A stretch of 64,000 nucleotides of DNA, taken from Cryomorphaceae bacterium (GTDB taxonomy: Bacteria > Bacteroidota > Bacteroidia > Flavobacteriales_D > Parvicellaceae). Positions within the stretch are counted from its first letter, which is position 1. Each line of letters begins with the position of its first letter. Below the pieces are notes generated by a model. It did no database searches, was not told where the DNA came from, and saw nothing but the letters and a program-made list of their open reading frames with translations. Positions 8,847-30,232 of this stretch are shown here, piece after piece. The stretch lies in the NCBI GenBank assembly GCA_905182525.1, contig CAJJBV010000001.1:124001-188000 (forward strand), in the 5' to 3' direction. The position numbers and the translations under genes are program-made.

Positions 8847-11417
8847 TTATTTCCAGTTGGTGTGTAAGAAGTAGGATCCATCAAAATTATCTATAATAGT
8901 TCCAGAAGATGGAGTATTAATAAAATCTACTTGTAGTGCTGGAAAAAGAGAATTATATGGATCGGTATCATTGGAAATAATATCGGATTCAGAAAAAGTA
9001 ACAGTATCATTACAGCTATAAATATTCACTACATCATCAACTGTAATAATTGGTAAAATATCGTTTACTGTAACATTAAAAATAGCAAATGAAGAGTCTA
9101 AATTATTATCAACTACAAATAAAGTATCTACGTTATTTCCAATATTAGAGCAATTAAAATTATACTTTGATAAAGTTAAATTAGGGCTATTTGTGCAATC
9201 ATCATTTGATCCATTGTTAATTTGATTTGCGGTAATTGTAGCATTACCAGTTGCATCCAAAGTTACTATATGATTAGGTTTTGCAATAGCAATTGGAGGG
9301 TTGTTAACGACTGTTACTTGTGCAGAAAGAGAGTCTGTAATATTATTAATGTCATCAACTTTCAACCAAACTGTGATTGTAGAGCCAACATCACTACAAT
9401 AAAGTGTGTCCGGTCTTACCCTGTAATTGGTTAATCCACAAGCAGAATAGGATCCATCGTCAACTTGAGATGGTAAAATAGTAATCCTTGCTGTTAAGAA
9501 ATTTAAGTTTATAGAAATATTTTTTGTTTTCATAAAAACACCTGCTTCCATAAAGTCATAAATACCAGAACCATTAGAATCTAATGGAATTGTGTAACCA
9601 TCTACTCTACTAATAACTTTCCCGTCAGTATCAACTGCTGGAGGAGCTAATGAACCGAGTAGTGAATCTTTATTATTATCAGTGAAACCTGCTTCACTTA
9701 CATCTCTACATCCGTCACCGTCGGAATCTAAATCTTGAAAATCTTTTTTACCATCTAAATCTGTGTCAGGTTCTAATGTAAGTTGAGTATTGTCATCCAT
9801 TCCATTATTATCAGAATCTATAAAACCAGCATCGTTTACATCGACAACCCCATCATTATTAGTATCAAATATTTCATCCCCACCTTCAATGACATCATGA
9901 ATTCCATCGTTATCACTATCTAAATCGAATTTATCAACAACAAGATCCCCGTCGGTGTCACCATAAGATAAATCATCGACTCCTAAAATGAAATAAACAA
10001 AATCTCCGCCAGAATTAATATCAAAGGTAAATTTTGAAAAACTTCCGTTCAACCTGACAATTGCATTACCGCTTAAATTATTAATATTTTCAATTTTATT
10101 TCCAGTTTTTATAATATTACTGGACCAAAGCACATCAATAGGATCATAAAATTGAATATCCACAACTACTGATGCAATTTTACCAACATCTGAAAATAAA
10201 ATTATTGGGTTATTTACAGGCTGATTAAAAGTTATAGTGTTAGAGTTATTAACCGTCACTTGAAAACAATTTTGAATAGGAACAGGTTGACTAGGGACAC
10301 CATATGAAATAGGAAAATCAGTTGGATTTGGTAGAGTTGAAGTTTGAATTACTGAATTAGGTGAGTTAGTGTAACCAACACTATTTATTATACCAGTAGC
10401 AGTAGGCGGGTTTAAAGTTGGTATATTTGACCATTTAATATCTGAAGTTGTAAATTCGTCAGTATCATAAATGCCATCGTTGTCATCATCAAAATCACAA
10501 GGATCAGGTACACTATCACCATCTTGATCAGATCCACTTACAGTAACTTGTCCAATTCCTGTTGTTGTAATCCCATTTACTGTGATGCTTAGGGTAACAT
10601 TTATAGGATTATTCGGAACATCATCACATGTGAAATCATATCTACTTAACGATCTCGTAAATAGTCTCCCACATGGATCAACAGATCCATCGTCAATATC
10701 ATTTGTATCTATACTAGCACTTCCAAAAGCGTTTAACTGAACAGTAATATCCTTAGTTTTTACTATTACTCCTGGCTCCATAAAGTCATACAAACCATCA
10801 GAATTTAAATTGTCTGGTTCTGTATATCCATCTACTCCACTAGTAACTTTACCATTTAAATCAACTGTTACAGGACTTGGTCCAAGTAAAGAATCGGAAT
10901 TACTGTCTGTAAATCCAGCTTCAATCACATCACTACATCCATCGGCGTCACTATCTAAATCTACATAATCAAATTTACCATCAAGGTCTGTATCATATGG
11001 GAATGTTGCAAATGAAGCATCATTCATTCCATCATTATCTAAATCTGTAAAACCTGGGTCATTAATATTTACTACTCCATCATTATTTTTATCCGAGGCA
11101 CTATCTCCAGCTTCAATAATATCATAAATTCCATCATTGTCACTATCTAAATCTAAATGGTTAGCAATTCCATCATTATCAAAATCCATATAACCTCCAC
11201 AATTTAAAGACAAATTTAAAGGAGTGGAATTATCAAAACTATTATCAATAGTTGAAATTTTCAAATAGTCTGTAGTCATTTTAATCTCCCAAAATTCAGA
11301 AGCTTGATCAGTTCCAGAACCATTAAATAATAAGTTTCCACCAAAATCTTGAACAATAAGTAAGTCACTATTAGGATCATAAATTTCAAATAATCTACTA
11401 TTTACCAGTAAGTCTAG
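8847..11417 (-). CDS. Middle piece of the giant adhesin: calcium-binding and Ig-like repeats
   Basis: An open frame running from about 11417 (LVNSRLFEIYDPNSD) to a stop at 8847. It contains three long DxDxDG-rich clusters of the thrombospondin type 3 sort (for example DFDNDGIANHLDLDSDNDG, DTDGDLVVDKFDLDSDNDG) separated by Ig-like segments with conserved NCS/SCN cysteines. The final residues (GTIIDNFDGS) lead into the lectin domain; removing one T from the run at 8869-8870 restores the normal DGSYSYTPTG junction. An internal ATG at 11279 could be mistaken for a start, but it has no signal peptide and the homologous sequence continues upstream. Confidence 0.7.
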   Translation of the reverse strand, partial: LDLLVNSRLFEIYDPNSDLLIVQDFGGNLLFNGSGTDQASEFWEIKMTTDYLKISTIDNSFDNSTPLNLSLNCGGYMDFDNDGIANHLDLDSDNDGIYDIIEAGDSASDKNNDGVVNINDPGFTDLDNDGMNDASFATFPYDTDLDGKFDYVDLDSDADGCSDVIEAGFTDSNSDSLLGPSPVTVDLNGKVTSGVDGYTEPDNLNSDGLYDFMEPGVIVKTKDITVQLNAFGSASIDTNDIDDGSVDPCGRLFTRSLSRYDFTCDDVPNNPINVTLSITVNGITTTGIGQVTVSGSDQDGDSVPDPCDFDDDNDGIYDTDEFTTSDIKWSNIPTLNPPTATGIINSVGYTNSPNSVIQTSTLPNPTDFPISYGVPSQPVPIQNCFQVTVNNSNTITFNQPVNNPIILFSDVGKIASVVVDIQFYDPIDVLWSSNIIKTGNKIENINNLSGNAIVRLNGSFSKFTFDINSGGDFVYFILGVDDLSYGDTDGDLVVDKFDLDSDNDGIHDVIEGGDEIFDTNNDGVVDVNDAGFIDSDNNGMDDNTQLTLEPDTDLDGKKDFQDLDSDGDGCRDVSEAGFTDNNKDSLLGSLAPPAVDTDGKVISRVDGYTIPLDSNGSGIYDFMEAGVFMKTKNISINLNFLTARITILPSQVDDGSYSACGLTNYRVRPDTLYCSDVGSTITVWLKVDDINNITDSLSAQVTVVNNPPIAIAKPNHIVTLDATGNATITANQINNGSNDDCTNSPNLTLSKYNFNCSNIGNNVDTLFVVDNNLDSSFAIFNVTVNDILPIITVDDVVNIYSCNDTVTFSESDIISNDTDPYNSLFPALQVDFINTPSSGTIIDNFDGSYFLHTNWK

Positions 11418-22269: not shown

Positions 22270-22812
22270 TTGAAGAAAATATCAATTACAAAATACTTTT
22301 TAATTATTTTATTCCTTCCTTTTTCAATTCTAAGTCAATCTAATGATTTAAATCAAAGTAAAGTTTCCAAGTATGAACTTGAAGACCACAGACTTCATAT
22401 AAAAGGGAAATCTTTTAACTCAACTGGTAAAGTACACAATGTTAGAATTCGAATTGTCCATGACGATGGAGTAATTGACACATTACTTTCTAGTAATGGT
22501 AAATACAACTTGCATTTAGAAATGAATCATAAAATTCTCATTGAATTTGAATGTCTAGATAATATGCATTATATAAAAAGAATTGCTTTTAACACCCAAG
22601 TTCCTGACGATATTAAAAGAATTCCATTCTTTGATTTAACTATGAATTTAGTTGAGAAAAATCTTTGGGAAATTAATGATTCTGATTTAGATCTTCTTGA
22701 TATGCCAGTAGCATATTTGAATTATGATTTAGAAAAAGGTCTATGGTATGATAAAAATGCTGCTTTCAGTAGAATTATTAATAAAAAAATAAAAAGTTAC
22801 GGGATATATTAA
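22270..22812 (+). CDS. Small secreted protein of unknown function, first gene of the PKD/PorP cluster
   Basis: A 180-residue protein with a signal peptide (MKKISITKYFLIILFLPFSI, cleavage near LSQS). The mature part contains a short beta-rich segment (GKVHNVRIRIVHDDGVIDTL, SNGKYNLHLEMNHKILIEF) resembling carboxypeptidase-regulatory or transthyretin-like folds of secreted Bacteroidota proteins. I do not recognise a named family. The TTG start at 22270 also forms the end of a TAATTTTG box; I keep TTG because no other start would preserve the signal peptide. The next gene begins 36 bases downstream, which suggests co-transcription with the PKD giant. Confidence 0.7.
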   Translation: MKKISITKYFLIILFLPFSILSQSNDLNQSKVSKYELEDHRLHIKGKSFNSTGKVHNVRIRIVHDDGVIDTLLSSNGKYNLHLEMNHKILIEFECLDNMHYIKRIAFNTQVPDDIKRIPFFDLTMNLVEKNLWEINDSDLDLLDMPVAYLNYDLEKGLWYDKNAAFSRIINKKIKSYGIY

Positions 22813-22848: not shown

Positions 22849-25800
22849 ATGAAATATCTGAGTTTAATTTTTATTCTAATAAACCTTAACCTTTATTCTC
22901 AGGTAAATGCTACTTTCAACGCTAATAACGTAAGTGGTTGCTCACCGCTTAGTGTTCAGTTCACTAATACTTCAACTAACGGAGTTTCATTTTTATGGGA
23001 TTTTGGTAATGGCACTTCTTCAATTCTTAATAATCCATCTGCTATATTTACTAATCCTGGATTTTATACTGTAAAATTAGTAGCATACAATGGTCCAGAT
23101 TCTGATTCAATTATTGCTGTTAATTATATTGAAGTATTAAATAAACCTACTGCAAATTTTAATTATACAATTATAGAGGGTTGTGAGGAAAATAATTCAA
23201 TTGACTTCTCTAATACTAGCATAGGTTCTAATTCTTGTGTTTGGGATTTTGGTAATGGAGATACTAATTCTTTAAATAATCCTAATTACAGCTATTTTCA
23301 GCCTGGAAGTTACCCTGTTACCTTAATAGCTTATAATGGATTAGGATGTAGTGATGATACAGTTATTGGTCCAATAGTTATTAACCCAACACCTATTTTA
23401 AATGCTTCTTCAGATACTACTATAATTTGTGACAGTTCTTATAATTTCACATTTACAGGAACATCTTCAAATACTACTATTACAAACTGGCAATGGGACT
23501 TTGGGGATGGCATTAATACATCATCAACTTTTAATTCAATTCAATATGTTTATGATTCATCAAGTACATTTAACCCTAGCGTTACTGGAATTTCTTCAGA
23601 CGGATGTATAGACTCAATTAATTTAGATGAAATTGAAATATTACCTTTTGAAATTTACACGCTTTCATCAAGTACTAATTTGGGGTGTCCCCCTTTAGAT
23701 GTGGTCTTTAACATTAGTCCAACTGATTCTATTCAGAATATAAACTGGGACTTTGACGACGGAAATTTACTTTCTGGAAACTTATCTCCAACAAATCAAT
23801 TTCTTAACAATGGTGTTTTTCACCCTTTTGTAATAGTTGAAAATTTAAATGGATGTTTTCAACAAGTTGATTTAATAAATTCAATTAATATTAACAATTC
23901 GCCAAGTGCAACTTTTAATTTATTAAATACATCTGGTTGTCCCCCATTATCGGTTGGGTTTGATGTTTTTACATCAATTACAAACGTACTTAATATAGAT
24001 TTTGGAGATGGGAATCCTAATTCTAATCTTAATAACATTATACATACATACACAGACAATGGAATATTTTATCCGATTTTAACTATCACAGACACCAATA
24101 ATTGTCAAAGTATTTATAATATGGATACTGTCTATTCTGGAATTTCTAATATTGATTTTTCTGCTTCAAAAGTAAAGGGTTGTGCTCCATTAAAAGTAGA
24201 TTTTTCAAGTATTGCTCCATCTGCAACTTCATGGTCATGGGATTTTGGAGATGGACACACATCTAATGATGAAAACCCTGAAAATACTTATGACAGTGCA
24301 GGTAGTTATTCTGTGACATTAGTTGCTTATGACGTAAATAGTTGTTTTGACACATTAATAAAAATGAATTATATTTTAGTTGAAAAAGAAATAGTTGATG
24401 TAGTAACAATTGACACAATTATAGCCTGTTCTCCATATGTTTTTAATACTGATGTTTACAATATTGGCGTTAATTTTTGGGATTGGGATTTTGGAGATGG
24501 TAATATAAATAATGGGCAAAGCATTAGTCATACATATGATCAGCCAGGTACTTATAACATTTCATTATTTACTGATGCACCAAATGGCTGTAAATACGAT
24601 TTAAATAATTTTGCTTTTTTAAAAATTGATGGAGTTGATATTAATGTAAATATAAATTCTAATTGCAGCACTGGTCTTGTAAATATTGTAAATAATTCAA
24701 CAGGAGTTACACAACATTTATGGAATATGGGAGATGGTGTTACTTATACAACAGCTAATGTTCAACATACATATAGTACATCACAGTCTTATGTTATAAC
24801 CTATGAATCTATTTCTGAAATTGGCTGTAATAACTTTGAATATTATTCTGCTATTGTTGATTGTAATCCTGCTAACCCATTAACAATTACAATGCCACCG
24901 CAAAACCCAATTAATCCATTGATTGATCCAATTACAAATTTACCTATTGGACAAACATGTGGACCAGAAAGTGTAAATTTAAATTCTCCATTTCCAACTG
25001 CAATTTCATGGACATGGGATTTTGGAGATGGGCAAACATCGACTATACAAAATCCTTCAAATTTTTACTCTGTTGCTGGAAAATATGATCTTCAGCATAC
25101 TGCCACTTTTGCAGATGGATCAGTTAAAACAATGACGATTTTGAGCTTTATAGATCAATATACTTTAGATGCCAATTTTTCACTTCTTAAAAATGAATTT
25201 TGTAATAACAACACATATATATATGAAACATTTAACGATTCAGCAGCCAGTTATGAATGGAGTCTTGACACCAACATTATTTCAAATATTTTGAAGGATA
25301 GTATTAACCTTCAATTAAACGATTCTGTAAGTGTTTTAAGTTTAAAATTATCCGATCAATATGGATGTGTAGCTGAATCCCAGCAAAACATATTTTTATA
25401 TCATCCTTTGGCAATAATTAAACAAGACACATTTGCTTGTTTTGGATCTAATATTTTTGTTGAGTGTAGTGTTAAAGACGAACCAATTCATAATTGGGAT
25501 ATGAAAGATGGTAATTTAATAACATTAGACACAACATTCACACATGAATATCAACAATCTGGATGGTTTAATCCAATACTAACTCTAAATAATACTGGTT
25601 GTATAAGACAGATAGTATTAGATTCAATTGAAATATTTGAACCCGATGCTACTTTTAGTCCAATTAATATTCCACCAATATGTAAAAATGACAGTGCCCT
25701 ATTTGTTGCAAATAATAGTTCTTATAGTAACAGTAGTTACAATTGGTCAGGTGGATTGGTTTTGGGAACTGGCGATTCCACATGGATAAAAATTAATACA

Positions 25801-28704
25801 AGTTCTAGTCAAGCTATAATCTCTTTAAATATAAATAATAGAGGATGTAACAGTACTTTTAAATCAGATACTATTATTGTAAATAATGCATACGCTAATT
25901 TTAGTTATAATATTTCTAATAATTGTGTTCCAATTGATGTTAATTTCCAAGATTCTTCTATAAACCCCACTGATTGGAAATGGGATTTCAACAATGGCTT
26001 ATCTTCAAATTTACAAAACCCGACTCAACAATTTACAAGTTTTCCAAATGATAGTATCCAATTAAAAATTACGGATTTAAATGGATGTTCTGATTCTATT
26101 AGAAAAAAAATTAAAAATGATTTTAATGCAGATTTTACAGTAAGTGATACTCTCATTTGTGCAAGATCCAATATTATTTTTAATCCATTAAGTGAAATTG
26201 TTAACAGTTGGAGTTGGGATTTTGGAGACGGAAATATATCAACAGACTCTACTCCATCACATAATTATCTATCTCCTGGCATTTATAATGTAAAATTAGT
26301 AGCTTCTGATGGCCAAGGATGTATTGATACTGTAGTGAAAACAGCAATTATTACAGTTAATGAAGTAATTGCAGATTTTTCATTTAATATTAATGGAACC
26401 TGCCCACCAGTAATAACTCAATTTATAAACAATAGCTCTGGTGCTTCAAATTATTATTGGGACTTTGGAGATAATTTAAATTCTATTAATACAGATCCTA
26501 CACACGTCTACAATAAATCTGGATATTTTGATGTTTCATTAATATCAACTAACAATTTATGCTCAGATACTTTATTAATTAATAATTTAGTATTTATTCC
26601 TGGCCCTGTTTTAAATTTTAGTGTAAATCAACTCACTGGCTGTGATAGCTTAAACATTTCAATATCTGATAGTTCATTAAATACTGTTTACCATAAATAT
26701 TTTTTTGGTGACGGAGATACTTCTAACTTACAAAATCCAACCCATACTTACACGAGCCCTGGTGCATTCCAAATTACCTTAAGAGGTGAAGATTCTGCGG
26801 GATGCCAAAAAACATTAACCTCTAGTAATATCATTAAAATTGACCTCACTCCTATTATAAATTTTCAAGTTTCTGATAGTATTTTATGTGTTAATTCATC
26901 ATTTTCTGTTACAAATAATTCTTTAAATACAAGTAATCATTCATGGTTATATGGCTCGTTAAATTCTAATATTATGTCACCTAATTTTATTGCAAATTTA
27001 ATTGGTAGTAACCCTTTGCAATATATTGCGAAAAGTGCTAATTCAATTTGTTTCGATACTTCTTATGTAAATATTAATACATCAGATATTCCTAATGTTT
27101 CAATTACTAACCCTGGAATTTTATGTACAAACCAAGGTCCATTTGACTTGAATTGTTTAAATGATAGCATATACAGTAATTTAATTTGGAGTGGAAATGG
27201 AATAATTGATAGTAATAATGGAATAATTGCAACATCGATATTAATTGACTCTACAACAATTTATGTAAGTCACGATAGTATATGTTCCTCCACCGATAGT
27301 ATTATAATAATTGTAGACATCCCACCTAATGCATCGATACTAACTAACGATACTTCATACTGCGAGGGATCAAGTATTCTTACTCCATTAGTAGTTAATG
27401 ATAGTGGATATTGGCTAGGACAAAATGTAGATTCTTTAACTGGAAACGTGGTAAATAATTTAATTCCAAATAATTATTTATATCAATATGTTTTAACTAA
27501 TAATAACAATTGTAAGGATACTGGAAGTTATCAAATTCAAATAATAGCCAATAGTGATGCAACTATTATAAATCCAGGAATCATATGTAACAACCTAGAC
27601 TCGTTACAGCTATATACAAATGAAAATGGCGGAATATGGACTGGTTTAAATGTAAATAACGGCTTAATTGATATAAATGCACTTGGAACTGGAATTCATG
27701 ATTTTATTTACACAATAAATGGTGTCTGCCCTGATGAAGACACATTAAGTCTTGAGATTTTTGAGTTTATACAAGCTCAAACAAACCCAATTGTCGATTT
27801 TTGTGAAGGAACAGATTCAGTACAATTTTCCGCAACTACAAATATTGGATATTGGGCTGGTTTACCATCCTTAGACTCTCTTTCAGGTTTGCTAATTTCA
27901 GATACTGTTCAAGATGGTTTATACTCTACATATTACATAATTGATGGCAACTGCCCAAGTATTGATACACTAAATTTTACTATACTTCCAAAACCTGATA
28001 TTAGTATTTCATTTTCTCAATTGCTCCCTTGTGTTGGTTTTCAACTAGATGTTATAAACTCATCGAATAATATATCTAATGAAGATTTTTCTTGGTATAT
28101 AAATGATAGTCTTTATTATCTAAATTTTAATGAACCATATTTTAATTTAGATACTGGATTTTATAAAATAAAGGTACTAGCTACAAATCAATTTAATTGT
28201 TTCACTGAAGAAATTTTATATGATTCTTTTCCTATTTATGACACTACTAAACTTGTTGAATCAGAAATTATTAGAACGACAGTCATAGAAAATACAAATA
28301 TTTACACAGAATGGTTTTCAACTAAAATTAAACTTAATCCATTATTGGAATATTCTATTTTTAGATCAGAAAATGGAAACTTATTTGAATTTATTACAAC
28401 TTTAGATAGCTCAATTAATAATTATACAGACCTCAATGTTGACGTAATGAATAGTCAGTATGATTATATTATAGTAAATAAAAATATTTGCAATGCAAAT
28501 TCTCTTAATTCTAATTTAGGAAATTCAATTTTATTAAACTTTCAGAGATTAACAAACTTCCGAACTAAACTAAACTGGAACTTTTATAACGGTTGGATAG
28601 ATAATCCAAATAGATACGATATACAAAAGTTGAACTCTGACGGAAATTGGGAAACAATCCAAAGTAATGTAAATACTCAAAATGAAATTATTATTAATGA
28701 ATAA
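22849..28704 (+). CDS. Giant secreted PKD-repeat protein lacking its own sorting domain
   Basis: A 1951-residue protein with a signal peptide (MKYLSLIFILINLNLYSQ). It carries at least a dozen PKD-type repeats, recognisable by WDFGDG or close variants (for example WSWDFGDG, WTWDFGDG, WDWDFGDG) and by the TYxxxGxYxVxL strand. The last 450 residues are more Cys/Gly-type Ig-like modules and part of a fibronectin III-like module. The protein stops at NEIIINE without any T9SS C-terminal domain, unusual for such a protein. The next gene, 34 bases away, supplies the missing part of the fibronectin-like module and a type B sorting domain on its own signal peptide. Inference: a cell-surface adhesin or motility-type filament exported by T9SS together with the neighbouring PorP/SprF protein. 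Confidence 0.9.
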   Translation: MKYLSLIFILINLNLYSQVNATFNANNVSGCSPLSVQFTNTSTNGVSFLWDFGNGTSSILNNPSAIFTNPGFYTVKLVAYNGPDSDSIIAVNYIEVLNKPTANFNYTIIEGCEENNSIDFSNTSIGSNSCVWDFGNGDTNSLNNPNYSYFQPGSYPVTLIAYNGLGCSDDTVIGPIVINPTPILNASSDTTIICDSSYNFTFTGTSSNTTITNWQWDFGDGINTSSTFNSIQYVYDSSSTFNPSVTGISSDGCIDSINLDEIEILPFEIYTLSSSTNLGCPPLDVVFNISPTDSIQNINWDFDDGNLLSGNLSPTNQFLNNGVFHPFVIVENLNGCFQQVDLINSININNSPSATFNLLNTSGCPPLSVGFDVFTSITNVLNIDFGDGNPNSNLNNIIHTYTDNGIFYPILTITDTNNCQSIYNMDTVYSGISNIDFSASKVKGCAPLKVDFSSIAPSATSWSWDFGDGHTSNDENPENTYDSAGSYSVTLVAYDVNSCFDTLIKMNYILVEKEIVDVVTIDTIIACSPYVFNTDVYNIGVNFWDWDFGDGNINNGQSISHTYDQPGTYNISLFTDAPNGCKYDLNNFAFLKIDGVDINVNINSNCSTGLVNIVNNSTGVTQHLWNMGDGVTYTTANVQHTYSTSQSYVITYESISEIGCNNFEYYSAIVDCNPANPLTITMPPQNPINPLIDPITNLPIGQTCGPESVNLNSPFPTAISWTWDFGDGQTSTIQNPSNFYSVAGKYDLQHTATFADGSVKTMTILSFIDQYTLDANFSLLKNEFCNNNTYIYETFNDSAASYEWSLDTNIISNILKDSINLQLNDSVSVLSLKLSDQYGCVAESQQNIFLYHPLAIIKQDTFACFGSNIFVECSVKDEPIHNWDMKDGNLITLDTTFTHEYQQSGWFNPILTLNNTGCIRQIVLDSIEIFEPDATFSPINIPPICKNDSALFVANNSSYSNSSYNWSGGLVLGTGDSTWIKINTSSSQAIISLNINNRGCNSTFKSDTIIVNNAYANFSYNISNNCVPIDVNFQDSSINPTDWKWDFNNGLSSNLQNPTQQFTSFPNDSIQLKITDLNGCSDSIRKKIKNDFNADFTVSDTLICARSNIIFNPLSEIVNSWSWDFGDGNISTDSTPSHNYLSPGIYNVKLVASDGQGCIDTVVKTAIITVNEVIADFSFNINGTCPPVITQFINNSSGASNYYWDFGDNLNSINTDPTHVYNKSGYFDVSLISTNNLCSDTLLINNLVFIPGPVLNFSVNQLTGCDSLNISISDSSLNTVYHKYFFGDGDTSNLQNPTHTYTSPGAFQITLRGEDSAGCQKTLTSSNIIKIDLTPIINFQVSDSILCVNSSFSVTNNSLNTSNHSWLYGSLNSNIMSPNFIANLIGSNPLQYIAKSANSICFDTSYVNINTSDIPNVSITNPGILCTNQGPFDLNCLNDSIYSNLIWSGNGIIDSNNGIIATSILIDSTTIYVSHDSICSSTDSIIIIVDIPPNASILTNDTSYCEGSSILTPLVVNDSGYWLGQNVDSLTGNVVNNLIPNNYLYQYVLTNNNNCKDTGSYQIQIIANSDATIINPGIICNNLDSLQLYTNENGGIWTGLNVNNGLIDINALGTGIHDFIYTINGVCPDEDTLSLEIFEFIQAQTNPIVDFCEGTDSVQFSATTNIGYWAGLPSLDSLSGLLISDTVQDGLYSTYYIIDGNCPSIDTLNFTILPKPDISISFSQLLPCVGFQLDVINSSNNISNEDFSWYINDSLYYLNFNEPYFNLDTGFYKIKVLATNQFNCFTEEILYDSFPIYDTTKLVESEIIRTTVIENTNIYTEWFSTKIKLNPLLEYSIFRSENGNLFEFITTLDSSINNYTDLNVDVMNSQYDYIIVNKNICNANSLNSNLGNSILLNFQRLTNFRTKLNWNFYNGWIDNPNRYDIQKLNSDGNWETIQSNVNTQNEIIINE

Positions 28705-28738
28705 TTATAATTAATTTAGTAAAATATATTTAGATAAA

Positions 28739-29203
28739 ATGTTTTCAAAAATTAATATTTATACACTTTCAACATTTATACTATTTTTTAGCGTGTTTTT
28801 AAATTATGCTCAAAATAATAACGAAGTTGAGTACAATGAGAACTTAAATATTTATAGAATTGTCGCTCTTAGAAATCAAAATCAACAAATTGTAAGTGTT
28901 TCCAATGCTGTTTCTGTTGAGAAACCCTATTCTCTTTATGCTCCTAACGCTTTTAGTCCTGACGGGGATGGAATTAATGATTTTTTTAATATTTCAGGTC
29001 AAAGCTTATCAGATTTTCAAATTGAAGTTTATAATAGGTGGGGACAAATGGTTTACAAATCAAAAAATATTTCAGATAATTGGAATGGGAAATATAACGG
29101 TAAAGATTTACCACCTGGAACTTATGTTTATAAAATAAAAACAATAAGCGTTTTAACTAATGATAAATATGTTAAAAGTGGTACTGTTTCGTTAGTAAGA
29201 TAA
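28739..29203 (+). CDS. Short secreted protein: part of a fibronectin-like module plus T9SS type B sorting domain
   Basis: A 154-residue protein with its own signal peptide (MFSKINIYTLSTFILFFSVF, cleavage after NYAQ). Residues 27-65 (NNEVEYNENLNIYRIVALRN, VSNAVSVEKP) look like the C-terminal strands of the fibronectin III-like module that the upstream giant leaves unfinished. Residues 66-154 (YAPNAFSPDGDGINDFF, YNRWGQMVYKSKN, GTYVYKI) are a complete type B T9SS sorting domain. It lies between the PKD giant (34-base gap) and a PorP/SprF gene (18-base gap). In other Flavobacteria, export of type B cargo depends on a nearby SprF-like protein. It may be a detached tail of the giant, or an independent small T9SS substrate. 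Confidence 0.85.
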   Translation: MFSKINIYTLSTFILFFSVFLNYAQNNNEVEYNENLNIYRIVALRNQNQQIVSVSNAVSVEKPYSLYAPNAFSPDGDGINDFFNISGQSLSDFQIEVYNRWGQMVYKSKNISDNWNGKYNGKDLPPGTYVYKIKTISVLTNDKYVKSGTVSLVR

Positions 29204-29221
29204 TTCTTTAAATCTATTTAG

Positions 29222-30232
29222 TTGTTAAAAAAAATACTTTTTGTAATTACAATTTTTTTGAATTTCAATATTCAATCTCAAGATCCTGTTTTTACTCAGT
29301 TTTTTGCTAATGCATTACAATTAAACCCTGCTTTGGCGGGTAGAGATTTAAGTCCACGATTTCATACAACTTACAGGAATCAATGGCCTGGACTTAATGA
29401 TGCTTTTATAACTTACAATATTGAGTACGATCAATTTGCAGATAAACTTCATGGTGGATTAGGATTTCAGCTATTACATGATAAAACCGGAAATGGTTCA
29501 TTAAATACAACTTCATTTTCTTCAATATATTCTTATCAACTTATTATTAATAGACAGTGGTCAATGAATTTCGGATTGAAAGGTTCATTTGTACAAAAAA
29601 GCCTAGACTGGAAAAATGCTGTGTGGGGAGATCAAATAGACCCTTCGTTAGGGGCAGTAATGTCTACTCAACAACCACAGGGTAAAAATAGTTTATCATT
29701 TGACTTTAGCTCAGGATTAATTTTATTTAGCGATAAAATGTTTTTAGGTGCAGCTGTTGATCATTTAAATCGTCCTAACGAAACTTTTTTTTATAATATT
29801 AATAGCCAATCTAAAAGTAAAATACCTATTAGAGCCTCCTTTCATGGGGGTTATAAAATTAGAATTCTTCAAAATGGATTATTTCATAAAGAACTATTCT
29901 TATCCCCAGAATTTGTAATAGATCTTCAATCTAATTTAAAAAGATATAATTTTGGAACCTATTTTGTAGATGGGATTTTTGATTTAGGATTTTGGTATAG
30001 ACACACGAAATTTCTTGATTCAAATAATGAGTATTATTCTCCACAAGATGCATTTGTTGTTGTACTAGGAGTTGAAAAAAATAATTTAAGGTTTGGATAT
30101 TCGTTTGATATAAATATTTCTAACCTTGCTACATCATCATTAGGATCTCATGAATTATCTTTCACAATAGATCTTCCAGAAAAAAGAGTTCACAATTCTA
30201 AGTTTAGAGTTGTTCAATGTCCACAATTTTAA
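29222..30232 (+). CDS. PorP/SprF family T9SS outer-membrane protein
   Basis: A 336-residue protein with a signal peptide (LKKILFVITIFLNFNIQSQ). The N-terminal mature segment (DPVFTQFFANALQLNPALAG, TTYRNQWPG) is the hallmark of the PorP/SprF family, and the rest is an alternating-strand beta-barrel. Family members sit in the outer membrane; SprF is required for secretion or surface attachment of the type B cargo SprB in Flavobacterium johnsoniae, and PorP/SprF genes are commonly placed next to type B cargo genes. Here it follows such a cargo gene by 18 bases. The start is TTG at 29222, chosen because it keeps the signal peptide intact. Confidence 0.92.
   Translation: MLKKILFVITIFLNFNIQSQDPVFTQFFANALQLNPALAGRDLSPRFHTTYRNQWPGLNDAFITYNIEYDQFADKLHGGLGFQLLHDKTGNGSLNTTSFSSIYSYQLIINRQWSMNFGLKGSFVQKSLDWKNAVWGDQIDPSLGAVMSTQQPQGKNSLSFDFSSGLILFSDKMFLGAAVDHLNRPNETFFYNINSQSKSKIPIRASFHGGYKIRILQNGLFHKELFLSPEFVIDLQSNLKRYNFGTYFVDGIFDLGFWYRHTKFLDSNNEYYSPQDAFVVVLGVEKNNLRFGYSFDINISNLATSSLGSHELSFTIDLPEKRVHNSKFRVVQCPQF

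Follow-up and report, generated by a model that had tools for sequence, protein, structure and literature searches.

What marks a protein as cargo of the type IX secretion system (T9SS), in definition and in genome annotation alike, is a C-terminal tail covalently attached to it. Type B cargo depends on a cognate PorP/SprF protein as its partner (PMC12618676), binding of type B proteins at the surface has been described for PorP-like proteins (PMC9143113), and according to a 2023 review the type B domain of ∼100 residues is insufficient, more than 200 residues being required (PMC10202324). Two described systems, SprB-SprF of Flavobacterium johnsoniae and PG1035-PorP-PorE of Porphyromonas gingivalis, resemble the locus analyzed here in that a type B domain adjoins PorP/SprF (PMC9143113, PMC12618676) and in that a giant repeat adhesin is the likely cargo; in both of them, however, the tail is covalent with the cargo, whereas here it sits on a secreted protein of its own and the cargo chain closes with a half-domain. 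Covalent FN3-CTD proteins of ∼700–2000 aa from the same class (L067, L068, L070, L177 and L180) have the same last FN3-like domain followed by a type B tail, but they are one chain, and their strands F and G usually contain Cys, a residue absent there from the split small proteins.

The window, i.e. the whole stretch of 64,000 nucleotides that was analyzed, contains three consecutive genes with the following features.

22849..28704, + strand: giant PKD-repeat surface protein, 1951 aa (open reading frame; orthologues are similar in length and have the same C-terminal end)
28264..28539, + strand: penultimate FN3-like domain of the giant (IIRTTVI...YTEW...), from alignments and AlphaFold strands
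28540..28701, + strand: first half (about strands A–E) of the last FN3-like domain of the giant, at the end of the chain, from the covalent-relative profile described below
28739..29203, + strand: small tail protein, 154 aa, composed of signal peptide, F-G arm and type B CTD (open reading frame)
28739..28810, + strand: signal peptide at the N-terminus of this protein, 24 aa preceding Q25, from the sequence and from a separate hydrophobic N-terminus in relatives
28850..28930, + strand: F-G hairpin arm, residues 38–64, IYRIVALRNQNQQIVSVSNAVSVEKPY, homologue of the half-domain that the giant is missing, from profile match, conservation and pLDDT
28940..29200, + strand: type B T9SS sorting domain (CHU_C / TIGR04131), from model matches
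29222..30232, + strand: PorP/SprF-family outer membrane protein, 336 aa, TTG start, 18 bases past the small gene

These open reading frames lie exactly as the original prediction had described them, and 34 bases separate the giant from the small gene, which is in a different reading frame. The giant begins with a Sec signal peptide (first ∼18 aa) directly followed by PKD-like sequence, and its Pfam matches were exclusively to PKD-type models, with PKD_4 in 13 stretches; models of type A, B and C sorting tails gave no match in its 1951 residues, in agreement with the claim that it has no T9SS tail. The penultimate FN3-like domain was the most conserved signature of the split giants in the alignments. 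The small protein scored above the curated cut-offs of both type B models (81 bits for CHU_C, PF13585, cut-off 27; 64.7 bits for TIGR04131, cut-off 35), and by inspection it has, like its relatives, a Sec signal peptide in the form of a hydrophobic N-terminus ending in AQ or similar, so that both parts ascribed to it were borne out. With its sorting domain, its signal peptide and a PorP/SprF gene nearby, it is a putative T9SS type B cargo. The product of the third gene matched PorP_SprF (PF11751) with 185.7 bits (cut-off 22.3) and TIGR03519 with 218.7 bits (cut-off 90.55), and is likely the cognate shuttle and anchor of the tail. A similar NE...NE segment on both sides of the split, which had also been pointed out, was confined to close relatives and not kept further away, and we regard it as incidental.

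In more distant homologues, the FN3-like domain runs directly into the type B tail within a single chain, and a profile was built solely from 13 such single-chain FN3+tail proteins (the covalent-relative profile). Tails of the giants matched positions 2–54 of this profile, and in 55 unique split giants the stop was projected to positions 51–55 (mode 53), a narrow range that partly reflects selection, the tails having been chosen as ending near the module end; the split itself was observed in unselected loci. The small proteins started mostly at positions 51–65 and continued to the end of the profile (182), and the F-G arm of the window's small protein matched about positions 54–97. When 42-residue arms alone were compared with the profile, the median score was 9.8 bits and 22 of 51 arms reached at least 10 bits, versus none of 1020 shuffled arms (maximum 5.8). 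Because giants and small proteins partition the covalent profile at ∼53/54, the break appears to fall in what would be the E-F loop, with strands F and G supplied by the small protein, and at this partition the acceptor lacks the very strands that the donor supplies. The Pfam fn3 model gave no match to the giant's C-terminal module; that the giant ends inside an FN3-like module, as had been claimed, is upheld by the division of the covalent profile between the two proteins. All relatives inspected share this break point, and they span at least 13 family-level groups of Bacteroidia; every giant C-terminus that was assembled, in the genus or in other genera and families of the order, had that same end. 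As for the proposed splitting of an ancestral gene, the homology of the two halves to one domain stood, while the split turned out to be ancient and not local, with fused forms found only in the more distant homologues.

The reading we favor, with a probability of roughly 0.74, is export in trans: docking of the small protein in the periplasm would complete the last domain of the giant, and the small protein would then take the giant through the T9SS. It is supported by half-domain homology, the fixed break, co-occurrence, mobile gene order, arm conservation and in silico conditional folding; physical binding, transport in trans, surface anchoring and a quality-control or gating role are what we infer. 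The pair would be a single T9SS type B substrate encoded as two chains, each of which would use a signal peptide of its own to cross the inner membrane via Sec. Once both are periplasmic, the small protein's F-G hairpin would fill in what is missing from the giant's truncated last FN3-like domain (non-covalent domain complementation), the PorP/SprF shuttle would read the type B tail of the small protein, and this tail would take the joined complex through the SprA translocon and hold it on the cell surface. Since natural type B signals reportedly need more than the ∼100-residue tail domain, the completed FN3-like domain may form part of the signal, so that the docked pair only would be exported. 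The covalent homologues, with their FN3-like domain before the tail, provide a candidate for the extra region of the type B signal, which, judging from these architectures, may be the FN3-like domain preceding the tail. To the more specific proposal of a split signal, made of the FN3-like domain and the CTD and formed only once the tail protein has completed the giant, which would allow assembly-gated export and the use of one tail for more than one giant and would have been kept across many Bacteroidia families, we give even odds.

Conservation was evaluated in 50 non-redundant small proteins, in which the arm (here residues 38–62) contained 2.52 bits per column, compared with 2.60 for the CTD and 1.32 for the signal peptide; Y39, R40, A43, S53, S55 and N56 were conserved in 96–100% of the 50 sequences. 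As the arm is conserved like the CTD, which would not be expected of a mere linker, it is probably under selection. Its fold was predicted by AlphaFold2 from a surrogate of the window, in which the giant tail, intergenic residues, signal peptide and small protein were joined as one chain with stops read as glycine and one +1 step, so that the halves were tethered and their proximity was imposed. In this surrogate, the pLDDT of the giant part was about 80–94 and that of most of the linker and signal peptide was below 50, and the three 10-residue blocks of the arm reached 90, 82 and 77 when tethered to the giant half (mean pLDDT of the five models from 59.6 to 76.9). The same arm residues had a pLDDT of 29–36 in the mature small protein alone, modeled with the same small-protein relatives, a control that gave a weaker model overall (mean pLDDT 54.5). 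Foldseek matched the surrogate to structures of tandem (three-)FN3 domains (E = 1.8e-9), this being a whole-chain match with low whole-chain TM-scores. The arm is thus predicted to fold only when the giant's half-domain is present.

This prediction bears on the possibility that the domain forms only at the cell surface or as an end-piece, the small protein being exported alone by the T9SS and then capturing or capping a giant that was exported by another route. A protein with a complete signal peptide and type B domain could indeed be a substrate alone. However, the giant has no other visible export signal, the CTD alone is reportedly insufficient for the secretion of a type B fusion (PMC10202324), and in the absence of the giant the arm is predicted to be disordered; we therefore consider surface capture unlikely.

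The two genes were then traced through other genomes. The small protein was a separate open reading frame of about 143–169 residues with its own signal peptide in 7 of the 10 other genomes of the genus searched, and in the three members without it (G005, G009 and G010) the split giant was absent too; in further genera and families of the order it was again a separate open reading frame with its own signal peptide. A GTDB scan identified Crocinitomicaceae and other Bacteroidetes MAGs as close relatives, and an order-wide search with the giant's C-terminal module gave 17 strong matches (E < 1e-38), none of which was fused to a tail. A fusion in close relatives, which would have spoken against the original prediction, was thus not found, and single-chain forms exist only in the more distant homologues. 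A search of a phylum-level sample matched the window's genome solely and was uninformative.

At the class level, a profile of the giant's C-terminal module (A4, penultimate FN3-like signature, threshold E ≤ 1e-28) detected the giant in 36 of 395 Bacteroidia genomes from 11 family-level groups, and a profile of the small protein (A5, counted when a stand-alone open reading frame of about 140–210 aa had the arm) detected the tail in 41 of the 395, from 13 groups. All 36 giant genomes were among the 41 tail genomes (hypergeometric 5e-46, phylogeny ignored), and the same stop point was observed in all 29 loci inspected at E < 1e-33 as well as in seven second copies. The remaining five tail genomes (G413, G456, G492, G729 and G537) also contained giants, which scored lower, bringing the tails accompanied by a giant to 41 of 41; among these five, truncation was read directly in G413, G729 and G537, the giant of the last being adjacent, truncated and more diverged. 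In 16 control genomes, where every candidate was scored, there were neither stand-alone tails nor split giants. Two members of the window's family (G022 and G028) appeared to have tails without a giant, but giant orthologues are present in both; their open frames extend over just 802 and 380 aa, as would fit C-termini lost at contig ends. With these contig breaks checked and G537 explained, a small protein without a giant, which would have spoken against the original prediction, was not found. Conversely, one genome with the giant (G015) had no detectable small gene on a contig that ends 199 bases past the giant's stop. In another genome (G484:C3:85189-85569), the giant's C-terminal module was observed with two in-frame stops (TGA and TAA) beside an intact tail gene, which reflects either a decaying gene or a sequencing error.

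Gene order and copy number varied. In the Crocinitomicaceae relatives and G729, the small gene directly followed the giant; in seven other family groups, and likewise in G537, it was upstream of the giant with both on one strand; in G030 and G059 the two genes were divergent; and in f34, f72 and f69 they were on different contigs. Most Crocinitomicaceae relatives, and a single further family (L182), had PorP/SprF close to the small gene, and in several families no PorP/SprF gene stood beside the pair. The pair has outlasted such rearrangements, which speaks for a functional bond and against operon inertia. In seven genomes, a single small protein was accompanied by two truncated giants, suggesting that two cargos can share a tail. 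The two giants in such genomes could also be taken to mean that the incomplete domain is filled by a second giant copy or another partner, in a self-assembly as in pili, and that the likeness of the arm reflects descent from a split ancestor only. We give this little credence, since the N-terminus of the giant has no evident free donor strand, PKD-like sequence coming right after the signal peptide, and the arm retains the invariant F-G residues.

It is also very improbable that the small protein is cargo in its own right, such as a short protein with a surface or signalling role comparable to P. gingivalis PorA, and that it shares no more than an operon with the giant. Stand-alone CTD proteins do exist, and PorA is likewise a small stand-alone protein with a signal peptide and a CTD; PorA, however, is confined to Porphyromonas, functions in signalling and contains a folded FimH-like domain of its own (PMC7712824). 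Response-regulator genes, which might favor such a role, occur near several of these loci. On the other hand, the arm is homologous to exactly the strands that the giant is missing, it is highly conserved where an independent cargo would have a mere linker, and the co-occurrence holds even where the pair is unlinked. Between the two possibilities originally put forward, a tail provided in trans by strand complementation is accordingly preferred over an independent cargo on the basis of arm homology, co-occurrence despite changed order, arm conservation and predicted conditional folding, while the secretion step would follow by inference. A recent gene split, frameshift or assembly error, with a chance hydrophobic stretch as the signal peptide, has the adjacency of the genes in the window and the existence of homologous single-chain architectures in its favor, and is dismissed because the same separation and break recur in dozens of species and many assemblies with varying gene order and strand; programmed frameshifting was likewise rejected, as gap lengths and frames vary and the genes are sometimes divergent or unlinked.

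Pilins are known to undergo donor-strand complementation, both in chaperone-usher pili and in the type V pili of Bacteroidia. In the in-trans reading, as in pilins such as Mfa1 (PMC5954841), a second chain would donate the strands that an incomplete Ig-like domain needs; unlike in pilins, the donated pair would be that domain's own natural strands F and G, borne by a dedicated export-tail protein, and no polymer is implied. Tat hitchhiker export of PaoABC (PMC4273604) is similar in that a signal-less subunit is carried over a membrane by a signal-bearing partner, and differs in the membrane and the machine, and in that the signal-bearing partner here would also complete a split domain. A literature search for a T9SS tail acting in trans, with subscription papers mostly outside its scope, found no report; the component parts are of known kinds and the arrangement, as far as we have seen, is new. 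If the tail does act in trans, counts of T9SS substrates based on the CTD all overlook giant surface proteins of this class, and a function emerges for small 'orphan' proteins with a CTD. The T9SS would then be able to move a non-covalent complex by a natural two-component export tag, and the content of the reportedly >200-residue type B signal beyond the CTD would become testable.

Several further observations were made around these loci. A secreted 180-aa gene (22270-22812) precedes the giant in the window, its position is conserved in close relatives, and in L090 a member of its family is found close to the giant. It was rejected as a third component: the family is widespread in Bacteroidia, many genomes with the pair do not have it and genomes without the pair can, and so it is not a strict partner. 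Response-regulator genes lie between the small gene and PorP/SprF in L038, L040 and L043, with a LytTR-like one inside the operon of one genus, and also beside L044, L090, L192 and L194, a recurrence hinting at regulated or surface-sensing roles. In L038 (G016), several genes including the giant and PorP/SprF appear in pieces, probably through assembly errors, and L092 (CATLPG010000040.1), titled 'uncultured Saccharospirillaceae', a gammaproteobacterial name, carries a Bacteroidia giant, so that the record name or the binning looks wrong. Finally, two tandem small proteins with a signal peptide and a type B tail were observed at G000:C5:39262-40343 (9212-9712 and 10033-10599 of L049, − strand); they have an unknown region of ∼70 residues (..YTYRINFLL..), one of their tails is 58% identical to that of the window, and they are possibly a second detached-tail system near repeat-rich proteins.
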